A stretch of DNA of 64,000 nt from an uncultured Pelagibacteraceae bacterium (lineage in GTDB: Bacteria; Pseudomonadota; Alphaproteobacteria; Pelagibacterales; Pelagibacteraceae). Each line of letters begins with the position of its first letter. Within the stretch, counting starts at the first letter, position 1. The DNA lies in the NCBI GenBank assembly GCA_902538445.1, contig CACBFE010000001.1:1-64000 (forward strand), written 5' to 3'. Positions 48,708 through 58,514 of the stretch are shown piece by piece. Made by a program: the position numbers and the translations under genes. The notes below the pieces were generated by a model. It saw only the letters and a list, made by a program, of their open reading frames with translations, was not told the DNA's origin and searched no databases.

Positions 48708-51458
48708 TTAACACGTTCTTCCACCGTTACCACATTCTTCACCTTCTCCGTCTGCATTTGGATCTGCTCTAGACTCGTCTAATGCTCGTTGTGCGTCTGC
48801 TAGCGCCTGTTGTGCCTCTGCATTTGCTTGTGCTAATTCCTCTGATATTTCACCAGCAGCTGAATTAATTGCGTCTTGGACATCGGCCGCTGCTTGACTC
48901 GCAGAAGCAATATCTGCTTGTAGACCAGCTTCTGAAGCCACTGTATCCATTGCATCCAAATGAGCAGCAATATCAAATGAAGGATCCATAATTGCATCAA
49001 TTGAAGGAATGCCATCATTACTTAAGCCGACTGCGGCGTATGCCTCTGAAACCTTATTTGCAGCATCTAATATTCCTAATTCCTCAAAATATAATTGCAT
49101 ATCTATAACTTTACTATTACTCAAAGTCCTATTTGAAATTTCTAGATTAGAAATACTTTTGTCTTGGACCATTGTTTGAAAGTTTTTAATAAGCTCTACT
49201 TTCTTAACTTTTTCAGCTTTTTTTATAAATACGTCTATTGGCATAATTGGATTTATCGGAGTTGGTCTAACCGGTGGACTAATGACGAAACAGTCTTCGT
49301 TTACACAAATTTCTTTCGGTATATTATCTAAATCCTTTTTATTCTCTTTTATTACTTCACTAACAGCATCATTTGATTGATCTGCTATTTCATTTGTTGC
49401 TGCCTCTAATGAAATAAGGCTAATACTATAATTTAATTTCTTTGCTAAATTTTTGGATTGAATATCTTTAACTTGTATTGAGTTTAAAACTTTCATTGTT
49501 CTTTCAAATATTCTTGGGTCAACATAGTCACCTGCACCTAATTCATCCTCTCCGGTACCAAAACTAGCTGCAGCTAAAACCCTAGCTTTTTTTTCATCTG
49601 CTTGTTCTTTTGCTATTTTAGCTAATTTTATAACATTTAGAGGGGACGGTGAAACTATTAATGAAACTACGGTCAGCGGTGTATTAATTTCTTGATAAAT
49701 TTCTCCTGCGGTAAATTTTTTTTGAAAAACTTCTATTTGTTTATTTTTTTGTTCTTCTAAAAATTTATCGTAGAACATATTTCTACTTCCATCTGAAAAG
49801 AAATTATTCGTATACCCAGATCCTCCTACTTGAGCAAATACAAAAGCATTTTGATCAAGATCATTATCATCAGGAGCCAAAGTGGCTAAATTTGATCTAT
49901 CTATTTGTTTTTCTACTTGGCCTAGCAATTTATCTATCTTTCTATATGTTTCTACTGCATTAGTAATCTGTATTTTACTTTTAACATTTTTAGCTGGTAT
50001 TCCTCGTGACCTAGCATTGAGAGCGACTAGGTATGCATCATTTTGAAGATTTGAAATATTTATACTGCTCCACAAATTTATTTCATCTTGAATCTCTTTA
50101 TCACCTGCGCCAGAAATCATCATATGTCTGGCAGTTAAAATATTTTGAGATAATTCTGAATTTATCCCAGTTGATTTTATTATCTCTATCTCTTTATTAA
50201 TTTCATTAGTGCTATAGCCTAATTTGCTCATTGATTCCTCTATAAGGGAAACCCGGTTTTGAAGTAATTCGACTAAATTATCACTTGGTTCTTTAACTGC
50301 TACAACTTTATTGTCAGCAAATTTTGAAACATCCTCGAATTTAACAGTCTCAAATCCTAATTGCTTTAAGTTTCTATTTAATTTAAATATATTTAATCCT
50401 TGATTATTAATTTCAGCCATATCTGATAAGAGATTATTAATGTCTTTTTCTCTTTTATCTTTTATATTTTGAGTTATTCCAGACATTACGGTAGAAGCAT
50501 TTTTGCTTATTTTATTAATATCGACTTTCGAAAGATCGTTTGAATATTCTTTTGATAATTTGTTGCTAATGCTAGTTAATTTATTTTTAAGTACATCTAA
50601 ACCTAAGTTGTTAAGTAGTTGATTATTTTTTTGTGAATTTAATAATATGAAATCTGTTAAATTATTAATTTCTACTATGGCTTTATCGAAATTTTTTGCT
50701 TGAGCAATTTTTCCTTCAGGCAAAGAAGCTGCTGTTTTTTTTAACTTTGTATAATCATCTTTAAATTTTGTATATGGATCTTTTTTTAAATTTAATTCTA
50801 AATTAATTTTTTTTTTAATTAATTTATCATAAAATTTTTTTTCTTTTTCCTTTGAAATACTTGTTTTTAAGTTACTTACAATTGATATATATTTTTTAAT
50901 AATCTTTTTTCTTTTTTTTATTTCTTTATTTACTTTATTTTTTTTAGTTTCTCCTTGATTGAGAAAGTCTCCCATAATCCAATAATTTTCTATGACCTGC
51001 TCCGTACTTAGTTTCAAATCCATTCCTAAGCTTGATCTCATCTTTTTTCGCGCTTCATTAAGCTTGATTAAAGATGCTATATCTTTTTTATTGTTTTTAT
51101 TTGTGATGAATTCTTTAATTTTATCTTCATTATCTTTAAGTTTTTTTTGATAAAAAACCTCATACATGGCCATAGCGTGTAGTTGGGTGCCGGGGTATTT
51201 TTCTAAATAAGCCCCTTTTCTATTAAAAGCGATGATCATTTCCTTTGCTAAATTGTCTGCCGTACATGAAAATCCATTACAACCAGCTATAAATAAATTT
51301 TGCATGCCAAGTGGATAGTTTTTTGGCTCAATAAATTCTCCTAGCTCTTCAACTTTTTTAATAATAGATGTATTTTCTGTAATCTCCTCCGATTTTAAAG
51401 GAGAAAGGAGCACTAAGAATAATTTTAAAAAGAATATTATTTTTATAACTTTTTTCAT
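48708..51458 (-). CDS. Large secreted helical protein of unknown function
   Basis: 916 residues. Hydrophobic start MKKVIKIIFFLKLFLVLLSP with a likely cleavage near LKS-EE, then a mostly charged, helix-rich body with coiled-coil potential (Lys/Glu/Asn-rich, residues 100-420), a more hydrophobic middle (about 590-640), and an Ala-rich C-terminal helical region ending in an acidic Gly segment. Its six cysteines form three close pairs: 60/65 (CNGFSC), CVNEDC and the terminal CGNGGRTC, so disulfides in the periplasm are likely. A GGSGYTNNFFSDGSRN segment lies near residue 555. No family recognised. Flanked by tRNA-Gly and by surface-modification genes. Confidence 0.85.
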   Translation of the reverse strand: MKKVIKIIFFLKLFLVLLSPLKSEEITENTSIIKKVEELGEFIEPKNYPLGMQNLFIAGCNGFSCTADNLAKEMIIAFNRKGAYLEKYPGTQLHAMAMYEVFYQKKLKDNEDKIKEFITNKNNKKDIASLIKLNEARKKMRSSLGMDLKLSTEQVIENYWIMGDFLNQGETKKNKVNKEIKKRKKIIKKYISIVSNLKTSISKEKEKKFYDKLIKKKINLELNLKKDPYTKFKDDYTKLKKTAASLPEGKIAQAKNFDKAIVEINNLTDFILLNSQKNNQLLNNLGLDVLKNKLTSISNKLSKEYSNDLSKVDINKISKNASTVMSGITQNIKDKREKDINNLLSDMAEINNQGLNIFKLNRNLKQLGFETVKFEDVSKFADNKVVAVKEPSDNLVELLQNRVSLIEESMSKLGYSTNEINKEIEIIKSTGINSELSQNILTARHMMISGAGDKEIQDEINLWSSINISNLQNDAYLVALNARSRGIPAKNVKSKIQITNAVETYRKIDKLLGQVEKQIDRSNLATLAPDDNDLDQNAFVFAQVGGSGYTNNFFSDGSRNMFYDKFLEEQKNKQIEVFQKKFTAGEIYQEINTPLTVVSLIVSPSPLNVIKLAKIAKEQADEKKARVLAAASFGTGEDELGAGDYVDPRIFERTMKVLNSIQVKDIQSKNLAKKLNYSISLISLEAATNEIADQSNDAVSEVIKENKKDLDNIPKEICVNEDCFVISPPVRPTPINPIMPIDVFIKKAEKVKKVELIKNFQTMVQDKSISNLEISNRTLSNSKVIDMQLYFEELGILDAANKVSEAYAAVGLSNDGIPSIDAIMDPSFDIAAHLDAMDTVASEAGLQADIASASQAAADVQDAINSAAGEISEELAQANAEAQQALADAQRALDESRADPNADGEGEECGNGGRTC

Positions 51459-55426: not shown

Positions 55427-56422
55427 TTAAATATATTTTTTTACAAGAGTTTCAAATAAATTAATATGATCTGGATTATCATTAAGACATGGTATCAATT
55501 CAAAATTTTCCCCACCATTCTTTAAAAAGCTTTCTCTACCTTGAATGTTAATTTCCTCTAGAGTTTCAACACAATCTGACGCAAAACCTGGGCAAATAAC
55601 TAATAAATTTTTAACCCCTCTACCAGGTAAATCTTCTAAAGTTTTGTCTGTGTAAGGAGTTAACCATTCTTGCGGACCAAACCTTGACTGAAAAGTAGTC
55701 TGTATATCTATTGAAGTATATTGTTCTTTCATAAGTCTGGTTGTTTTGTGACAGTAGCAGTGATAAGGATCGCCTTTATCAAAATATTTTTTGGGTATTC
55801 CATGGTAAGAGGAAATTATTAAATCTGGTTTCCAACTTATTGTCTTAATTTTACTCTCAATGCTCTTTGTTAAAGCATTTATATATGCAGGTTCAGACTC
55901 ATAATGCGGTATTACTTGTAAGCTAGGCTGCCACCTCATTTTCATCAATGAACGATAAACCTCATCACAAACAGTAGCTGTAGTTGCTGCTGCGTATTGA
56001 GGATAAAGCGGTAAAATAATTATTTTTTCACATCCCAAGTTTTTAAGCAAATTTAACTTTGATTTAACGCTAGGATTGCCATATCTCATGGCAAAATCTA
56101 CTATAATTTTTTCATTTCCAATTTTATCTTTTAATTTTTGGGCTTGATTTCGAGTAAAGTACAATAGAGGCGACTCATTGCTCTCCTTCCTCCATATTTT
56201 TTTGTAAGCATGTGCAGTTTTCGCTGGTCTAAATGTAAGTATAAATAGATTTAAAATAATTTGCCAAAGAATTGGGTTTACCTCTATTACTCTTCGATCG
56301 GATAAAAATTCTTTTAAATATCTTCTAATATCCCACCAGTTGGTAGAGTCTGGTGTTCCTAAATTTATTAGCAATACTCCAGTTTTTCCAAATTTAACTT
56401 CTGGATGATCGTTTTTCATCAT
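55427..56422 (-). CDS. hemH: Ferrochelatase
   Basis: Inserts Fe2+ into protoporphyrin IX. LINLGTPDSTNWWDIRRYLKEFL, LPLYPQYAAATTATV, SYHGIPKKYFDKGDPYHCYC with the catalytic His, and QSRFGPQEWLTPYT. 331 residues. Overlaps hemE by 4 bp. Confidence 0.96.
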   Translation of the reverse strand: MMKNDHPEVKFGKTGVLLINLGTPDSTNWWDIRRYLKEFLSDRRVIEVNPILWQIILNLFILTFRPAKTAHAYKKIWRKESNESPLLYFTRNQAQKLKDKIGNEKIIVDFAMRYGNPSVKSKLNLLKNLGCEKIIILPLYPQYAAATTATVCDEVYRSLMKMRWQPSLQVIPHYESEPAYINALTKSIESKIKTISWKPDLIISSYHGIPKKYFDKGDPYHCYCHKTTRLMKEQYTSIDIQTTFQSRFGPQEWLTPYTDKTLEDLPGRGVKNLLVICPGFASDCVETLEEINIQGRESFLKNGGENFELIPCLNDNPDHINLFETLVKKYI

Positions 56423-57426
56423 TGATGTTCTCTATAAAATTTAATTAATCTCTCAACTTTAACTGGATCTGTCTCAGGAAGCAAACCATGGCCAAGATTG
56501 AATACATAGGGTGAATTTTTAAAAGTATCGAGATACTTCTTTGCTCTATCAAACATTTCTTTCTCGGGTTTTAATAAGACTCTGGGGTCTAAACCACCTT
56601 GTATAACTACATTTTTTAAATTTGCTTTTGCCCAACCTGGGTCAACCTCATAATCAATATTTAAACCATGTGATTTGACGACTTCGTTGAACCTTTTATA
56701 TTTTTTTCCAATCCCCTTCGGGAAACAGATAACTGGGATATTTTTACTTTTACAAAAATCAACTATTTTTAAATTAGGGTTTATGCAATAATTTTCAAAG
56801 TCCTCATCTTTGATAAAACCTGCCCAAGAATCAAATATTTGTATAACGTTTGCTCCAGAGTTTATCTGGTTTTCAATATGAATAATAAGAAATTTAGTTA
56901 AGTTATCTAATATTAAATTTATCTGCTCGACCTTTAATTTAATTTTATTGTGATCTATTTCATTTTTTTTTAATTTCATATCCAACATATAAACTAATAA
57001 TGTCCATGGAGCTCCAATAAATGCAATTAGAGATTTATTTTTATTTAACTTTTCTCTTGTTTTTCGAATAGCATCATAAACAGGTTTTAATTTTTGATTG
57101 AATAAATTTTTATCATTATTTAAAAATTTATAATAATCAAACTTTTCTAATTTTGGTCCTGTATCTTGTACAAAATTTACACTCTGACCTAGAGCATAAG
57201 GAACTAACAAAATGTCTGAAAAAATAATAGCCGAGTCTATATCGAACCTTTTTATAGGTTGTAATGTTATCTCAGTACTTAATTTGCTATCTAAACAAAG
57301 TTGAATAAAATCTTGGTTTTGTTGCCTAATATTTTTAAATTCAGGTAAGTATCGTCCTGCTTGTCTCATAAACCATACAGATTTACAAATGTTTTTATTT
57401 ATTAAAATTTCTTTTAGATTACTCAT
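56419..57426 (-). CDS. hemE: Uroporphyrinogen decarboxylase
   Basis: Converts uroporphyrinogen III to coproporphyrinogen III. SVWFMRQAGRYLPEF, FSDILLVPYALGQ, FIGAPWTLLVYM, and GHGLLPETDP at the C-terminus. 335 residues. Its 5' end borders the candidate origin, as in Caulobacter. Confidence 0.96.
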   Translation of the reverse strand: MSNLKEILINKNICKSVWFMRQAGRYLPEFKNIRQQNQDFIQLCLDSKLSTEITLQPIKRFDIDSAIIFSDILLVPYALGQSVNFVQDTGPKLEKFDYYKFLNNDKNLFNQKLKPVYDAIRKTREKLNKNKSLIAFIGAPWTLLVYMLDMKLKKNEIDHNKIKLKVEQINLILDNLTKFLIIHIENQINSGANVIQIFDSWAGFIKDEDFENYCINPNLKIVDFCKSKNIPVICFPKGIGKKYKRFNEVVKSHGLNIDYEVDPGWAKANLKNVVIQGGLDPRVLLKPEKEMFDRAKKYLDTFKNSPYVFNLGHGLLPETDPVKVERLIKFYREHQ

Positions 57427-57695
57427 TAAATAAATTAGTTTATAACTTTAATTAATGCTTTAGACTCTGTTAATTAGTTATATAACCATTTTTACAAGAT
57501 TTATACATATCATGGCTAATAACTTCATAAGGATTATCTCAATAATCGGATTTTATTCATTTTATAAACACTAAAAAAACATTATTATCAACATCCAATA
57601 AACTGTTTAAATAATGTTGATTAATGTTAATTATTTTTTTTCTACTTAAACTAAAATGTAAAACATGGAGTAATCAATAGTTTATTAACATAGAT
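57427..57695. other. oriC: Candidate chromosomal replication origin (oriC)
   Basis: 269 bp without a gene, very AT-rich, between divergent hemE and the DUF299 gene ppsR, the same position as the Caulobacter origin. Sites one base off TTATNCACA are TTATACATA (57501-57509), TTATAAACA (57562-57570) and TTATCAACA (57585-57593); a weaker inverted one is near 57615-57623. A long A/T tract (57604-57660) could unwind. Genes on both sides for several kb point away from it. Promoters for hemE and ppsR must also lie here. Confidence 0.72.
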
Positions 57696-58514
57696 ATGAA
57701 CGAAAAATACAATGTATATCTTGTGTCTGACTCAACCGGTGAAACCCTTGATAGAATATTTTTGTCTTTGAAATCACAGTTTGCTAACTTTAAGTATGAA
57801 AAAAAAGAATATGCTTTTGTAAGAACCGAACAACAAATTGATAAAATTATAAATGAGTGTAAGGAAGTTGATAATTCAATTATTCTATACACCATCGTAG
57901 AAACTAAGTTAGCCAAGTATCTTGCCAAAAAAAGTGAAAATAATTCTGTTCCTTGTTTTGGAGTTCTAGGAAATCTAATTTTAAGTTTCTCAAAACTTTT
58001 AAATAAAAAAGCTATTCATAAACCAAGCGCCCAACACGTTTTAGATGAAGATTATTATAAAAGGATTGAAGCAATTCAGTTTACGATGTCACATGACGAC
58101 GGTAAAAAAATAGACGATATTAATATCGCTGATGTTGTACTATTAGGTGTTAGTAGAACCAGCAAAACTCCGACATCAATTTATTTAGCAAACAGAGGCT
58201 ATAAAACAGTAAATATTCCTTTAGTATTAGATCAAAAAATACCAGAAGATTTGTATACAAACAAAACATCATGCATTGTTGGATTAGTAGCTGACCCAGA
58301 AAGACTTTCGGATATTAGAAGGAATCGTGTAGCAATTATGCAAGATCAAAACTTAAAAGAATATACTGATTTAGAATCTATTAAAAAAGAGGTAGAAAAC
58401 TCAAAAAACCTGTTTAAAAAAAATAGTTGGCCAATAATCGATGTTACTCGAAGATCTGTTGAAGAAACAGCCGCATCAATACTAAAGATTATAGAAATTA
58501 AGAAAAACAAATGA
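57696..58514 (+). CDS. ppsR: PEP synthase / pyruvate phosphate dikinase regulatory protein (DUF299)
   Basis: Bifunctional kinase/pyrophosphorylase that switches PPDK or PEP synthase on and off. VYLVSDSTGETLDRI, the P-loop-like LLGVSRTSKTPTSIYLANRG, and GLVADPERLSDIRRNR are the signatures. 272 residues. Equivalent of RP001 at the Caulobacter origin. Overlaps maf by 4 bp. Confidence 0.95.
   Translation: MNEKYNVYLVSDSTGETLDRIFLSLKSQFANFKYEKKEYAFVRTEQQIDKIINECKEVDNSIILYTIVETKLAKYLAKKSENNSVPCFGVLGNLILSFSKLLNKKAIHKPSAQHVLDEDYYKRIEAIQFTMSHDDGKKIDDINIADVVLLGVSRTSKTPTSIYLANRGYKTVNIPLVLDQKIPEDLYTNKTSCIVGLVADPERLSDIRRNRVAIMQDQNLKEYTDLESIKKEVENSKNLFKKNSWPIIDVTRRSVEETAASILKIIEIKKNK

Follow-up and report, generated by a model that had tools for sequence, protein, structure and literature searches.

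The hemE-ppsR gap and its DnaA-box-like sites

The window examined here is a 64,000-nucleotide stretch of DNA. Among named organisms, its closest relatives are single-cell genomes of Pelagibacteraceae, HIMB058 and further SAR11 bacteria, which confirms the earlier assignment to SAR11. Within it, a 269-bp intergenic gap runs exactly from the end of the hemE start codon (57426) to the start of ppsR (57696). A sequence-only reading had proposed this gap, bounded by hemE and a DUF299 gene, as the likely replication origin of a SAR11-type genome. Its coordinates prove exact, and both neighbors are confirmed by matches to PF01208 and PF03618. The genes hemE, hemH, hemJ and rho on the left all lie on the minus strand and point away from the gap over 3.8 kb, and ppsR, maf, aroE, coaE and dnaQ on the right all lie on the plus strand and do likewise over 3.4 kb, as the proposed divergence for 3-4 kb on each side requires. 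Similarly, the A/T-rich stretch claimed for the gap is borne out by a GC content of 0.193, compared with 0.305 for the contig, which falls within the lowest 1% of 269-bp windows. The features of the locus are as follows.

56419-57426, minus strand: hemE (URO-D; PF01208, 3.5e-85), left flank of the predicted origin
57427-57695, no strand: hemE-ppsR intergenic gap, candidate oriC by position, AT content, box cluster, conservation in the genus, and the skew and orientation pole in closed relatives
57468-57476, minus strand: DnaA-box-like site TAATTAACA; ACA core invariant in 57 of 57 gaps
57490-57509, plus strand: paired TATACA-type sites, TTTTACA and TTTATACATA; conserved block TTTATACATATTT-TATACAT
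57501, plus strand: TTATACATA, second member of the TATACA pair; one base off TTATNCACA
57562-57570, plus strand: DnaA-box-like site TTATAAACA; one base off TTATNCACA; ACA core in 81% of 57 gaps
57585-57593, plus strand: DnaA-box-like site TTATCAACA; one base off TTATNCACA; ACA core invariant, 57 of 57
57604-57612, minus strand: degenerate DnaA-box-like site, genus consensus ATTTTAACA; ACA core in 96% of 57 gaps
57607-57656, no strand: 50-bp stretch with the lowest duplex stability in the gap by nearest-neighbor energy, ranking in the bottom 1% of the contig for stability; candidate unwinding element
57615-57623, minus strand: DnaA-box-like site TAATCAACA; ACA core invariant; each position of the consensus TAATTAACA conserved at 88-100%
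57625-57633, minus strand: DnaA-box-like site TAATTAACA, 10 bp from the 57615 site; ACA core invariant, 57 of 57
57672-57684, plus strand: single match to the IHF consensus WATCAN5WTR, by pattern alone in an AT-rich gap
57682-57690, plus strand: DnaA-box-like site TTATTAACA, adjacent to the start of ppsR; one base off TTATNCACA; ACA invariant, 57 of 57
57696-58514, plus strand: ppsR (DUF299/COG1806; PF03618, 7e-92), right flank of the predicted origin

Perfect copies of the canonical DnaA box, TTATNCACA, do not occur in the 269-bp gap. Four 9-mers that deviate from it by a single base are present, at 57501, 57562, 57585 and 57682, compared with 0.71 expected from dinucleotide shuffles (P = 0.008). 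No other part of the 144 kb of contig scanned holds so dense a cluster: only 2 of 2,875 windows reach four sites, both of which overlap the gap. Three of the four had been noted previously and are indeed present, but that set was incomplete: the fourth, TTATTAACA at 57682, was missed, and the minus-strand sites TAATCAACA (57615) and TAATTAACA (57625 and 57468) were likewise overlooked. A specific variant, TTATNAACA, accounts for three copies in the gap against 0.12 in shuffles, and for 14 copies over the 144 kb. Genome-wide counts of perfect TTATNCACA are uninformative as an origin signal (22 copies versus 27 for the reversed control, and thus no enrichment).

A pattern search for CtrA sites (TTAA-N7-TTAA) finds none within the 269-bp gap, and CtrA control of this origin was dropped as a candidate for that reason. 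An ortholog of ctrA is reported to be missing from Pelagibacter (PMC2877005), and CtrA sites are optional in origins of the hemE-COG1806 type, with Ehrlichia ruminantium also lacking them (PMC1914354).

Conservation in the genus and family

Among the 57 genomes of the genus that carry ppsR, including the window's own, hemE is the divergent neighbor of ppsR in every case, and the gap between them spans 263-286 bp with a GC content of 0.18. Alignment of the 57 gaps reveals 23 invariant positions, 15 of which form five ACA/TGT triplets. These triplets are the 3´ ends of the box-like sites at 57468 (minus), 57585 (plus), 57615 (minus), 57625 (minus) and 57682 (plus). Because the cores are invariant while the adjacent HemE protein is just 52-72% identical across the genus, the ACA cores are evidently under strong selection. 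Thus, the expectation that the 9-mers should be conserved among close relatives holds in 57 congeneric genomes. The PpsR protein is 64-93% identical across the genus, far above its neighbor HemE, although no ppsR turned up in those genomes that were sampled from the order's other family.

Conservation also extends to the way in which these sites depart from the canonical box. The gaps contain on average 2.18 copies of TTATNAACA, where 0.146 are expected. The broader motif ATNAACA averages 4.25 per gap against 0.86 expected, whereas ATNCACA occurs at 0.16 against 0.18. Canonical TTATNCACA is missing from 56 of the 57 gaps and present in one, and the box consensus of the genus is shifted to T(T/A)ATNAACA.

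A model built from the right half of the gap, using DNA alone and therefore blind to the neighboring genes, matches 90 genomes of the genus at one site each (E 3.5e-21 for the window's site), except that one genome, G518, yields two further weak matches. In genera g173 and g174, the same model finds ten weak matches (19-24 bits), all ten of which lie in hemE-ppsR gaps. Since the model had no access to gene neighborhood, these matches independently confirm the site. A further match, L234 of genus g175, lacks synteny and was regarded as a chance hit.

The corresponding gaps in Pelagibacteraceae genera g173-g179 and g6 resemble that of the window in location, length (271-353 bp) and GC content (0.15-0.22), and nearly all contain TTATNAACA sites. 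Several differ in that TTATNAACA is accompanied by one or two canonical boxes (TTATACACA, TTATCCACA, TTATTCACA or TTATGCACA). At the level of the class, a sample of 29 hemE loci from across the Alphaproteobacteria shows the hemE-ppsR arrangement in 20.

Gene content beside the gap is not uniform. The hemH gene next to the origin is only ~30% identical to the window's hemH at two loci, L225 (6278-7213) and L328 (1185-2117), compared with 73% at others. The neighboring genes there show normal identity, a pattern suggesting that a foreign or paralogous hemH has probably displaced the original gene.

Strand asymmetry and alternative readings of the gap

The window genome is a 909,513-bp draft of 33 contigs (81% complete), which allows no full skew curve, so skew was read from closed relatives and long contigs. 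For three closed genomes of the same family (G314, G218 and G312), one third of the sequence was sampled, every 60 kb, a spacing that limits the precision of the distances that follow. The cumulative GC-skew minimum lies 5.2 kb from the ppsR gap in G314 and 6.5 kb from it in G218, and the maxima are 560 kb and 594 kb away, respectively, near half of the circle. When all possible poles are scanned for gene orientation, the best pole falls at 1,080 kb in G314 (gap, 1,090 kb) and 140 kb in G218 (gap, 141 kb). A skew minimum at the gap, proposed earlier as a check of the origin, is therefore seen in two of the three closed relatives, but not in G312, whose minimum is 128 kb off and whose orientation optimum (~130 kb off the gap) is a flat and ambiguous peak. 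On the 637-kb contig of AG-426-L23, a member of the window's genus, only 1 of 494 rotations equals the split in gene orientation seen at the gap. Coding on the leading strand ranges from 0.61 to 0.67 in all seven genomes tested.

Gene orientation accounts for most of the skew minimum in these relatives, since synonymous GC skew, once corrected for strand, either disappears or changes sign. Specifically, G314 and G218 show no GC effect, and in the window's genus the synonymous-site skew of the leading strand is reversed, with C over G and A over T (window positions 1-64000 with L089-L092; L204-L223; L313-L322). Taken by its sign, this skew would make the gap a terminus. We set that reading aside and treat the sign as specific to the genus, because gene orientation, the raw skew of closed relatives and the box cluster all indicate an origin. 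A relaxed E. coli-like dif pattern was rejected as a marker of the terminus since its matches are no more numerous than those of a control.

Position, conservation, box clustering, low duplex stability, and the skew and orientation pole in relatives all support the proposal of a chromosomal origin at this site. From these sequence comparisons, we predict that the hemE-ppsR gap (57427-57695) is very probably the chromosomal oriC of this SAR11 bacterium. Its location is also to be expected, given that the same position is established in Caulobacter, predicted in Rickettsia, and recurrent among the hemE loci of the class.

Two other explanations deserve mention. The gap might be a mere conserved two-way promoter or operator for hemE and ppsR, with the (T)TAACA repeats serving as binding sites for a transcriptional regulator such as one controlling haem synthesis. 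Promoters for both genes must indeed fit into this space, its hemE side carries conserved TATAAC-like and TATACA blocks, and operators typically contain repeated half-sites. However, a regulator leaves unexplained why the chromosome-wide skew and the orientation pole fall at the gap, and the arrangement in G218 disfavors a simple hemE promoter. In that closed genome hemE has relocated, yet the remaining rho-ppsR gap keeps three copies of TTATAAACA along with the skew minimum. We therefore regard an exclusively regulatory role as improbable, whereas promoter or operator function may coexist with origin function in the same DNA. The relocated hemE of G218 (locus L093) resides far from the origin in a hemC-hemB-hemE-hemH-hemF-hemJ cluster, and its product is 31% identical to the HemE of the window.

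Less credible still is a true origin beside dnaA, as in many bacteria, with the hemE-ppsR gap as an ancestral relic. In all seven genomes, just 60-73 kb separate dnaA-dnaN from the gap (dnaA is ~72 kb away in the window genome), a distance at which skew of low resolution might by itself fail to tell the two apart. However, the 213-bp rpsT-dnaA gap holds no site within one mismatch of TTATNCACA, the skew minima of G314 and G218 fall within ~6 kb of the ppsR gap and ~65-75 kb from dnaA, and a relic would not retain invariant box cores across 57 genomes. The G314 record even starts at dnaA, yet its skew minimum sits at the ppsR gap 70 kb off. Likewise, the largest strand-corrected skew step in AG-426-L23 is at 286 kb, the position of the gap, and not at 215 kb, the position of dnaA.

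A proposed shift of the box code and its possible use by DnaA

With the gap read as an origin, its neighborhood is that of a known alphaproteobacterial origin type and its box set is a lineage variant. The Caulobacter crescentus origin, Cori, likewise lies between hemE and the DUF299/COG1806 gene (PMC1914354) and is AT-rich relative to its own genome. Cori is reported to use weak, non-consensus DnaA sites called G-boxes (TGATCCACA) and W-boxes (PMC1914354, PMC4468827, PMC4285127). The G-boxes are moderate and the W-boxes very weak, and strengthening them by mutation can lower replication (PMC4468827). Because Cori works with such sites, Caulobacter provides a precedent for initiation from weak boxes. 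The two origins differ in length (269 bp in the window versus 404 bp) and in the lack of a CtrA site in the window gap. They also differ in how their boxes deviate, with C changed to A at position 6 in the window and T changed to G at position 2 in Cori. The predicted origin of Rickettsia prowazekii resembles the window's in its hemE and COG1806 neighbors and very AT-rich gap (PMC1914354, Table 1). Predicted Rickettsia origins, which were searched for with the canonical TTATNCACA box (PMC1914354), differ in being described with CtrA sites and in their lengths of 383-396 bp, whereas the window gap has neither a CtrA site nor a canonical box.

A change in the initiator protein could in principle accompany this change in the boxes. 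Alignment with solved DnaA proteins indicates that domain IV of the window genome's DnaA keeps the RRSR..RPRQ, SLPEIG and RDHTT motifs. Moreover, the motifs RRSR, RPRQ, SLP[ED]IG and RDHTT are identical in genera with and without canonical boxes. Co-change of domain IV with the boxes is thus unsupported, as is an altered initiator domain. Given that the DNA-contact motifs are retained, the origin with the shifted consensus T(T/A)ATNAACA is probably served by a DnaA of the ordinary kind. What the alignments demonstrate is a lineage-wide non-canonical consensus; that the gap sites have low affinity for DnaA is what we infer.

In the initiation scheme that we envision, DnaA would assemble cooperatively on about seven weak T(T/A)ATNAACA boxes distributed over both strands, and the paired TATACA element on the hemE side would join this assembly. 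The complex could then open the very AT-rich DNA around 57607-57656, the presumed place of melting, and two forks would be loaded, one leaving through hemE-rho and the other through ppsR-dnaQ. By a slight preference, we favor the broader hypothesis that SAR11 bacteria have rewritten the DnaA-box code of their origin by changing position 6 from C to A (TTATNCACA to TTATNAACA). Canonical high-affinity boxes would have been lost genus-wide with the DNA-contact helix of DnaA unchanged, such that initiation would depend wholly on cooperative weak sites and would proceed without CtrA. If true, the shift in box code may represent streamlined growth control in one of the ocean's most abundant cell types. 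If the shift is real, it raises a clear question: what allows a DnaA of ordinary type to initiate at an origin lacking any consensus box?

The hemE-COG1806 location is a known one for origins in this class, and the novelty here is a detailed map in SAR11 together with the lineage-wide box shift. We found no experimentally mapped SAR11 or Pelagibacter origin in the open full-text papers searched, a set that includes neither subscription articles nor DoriC or similar origin databases, and prior prediction of the hemE-ppsR site elsewhere is therefore likely. Regardless, the position has practical value, as growth estimates for marine SAR11 rest on origin-to-terminus read ratios. One such tool, GRiD, puts the origin at the dnaA contig (PMC7852909), and a precise, conserved origin ~60-73 kb from dnaA offers a fixed anchor for read-ratio growth methods.

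Elsewhere in the window, positions 48708-51458 (minus strand) encode a protein of 916 aa that begins like a signal peptide and continues as a long, charged, coiled-coil-like body.
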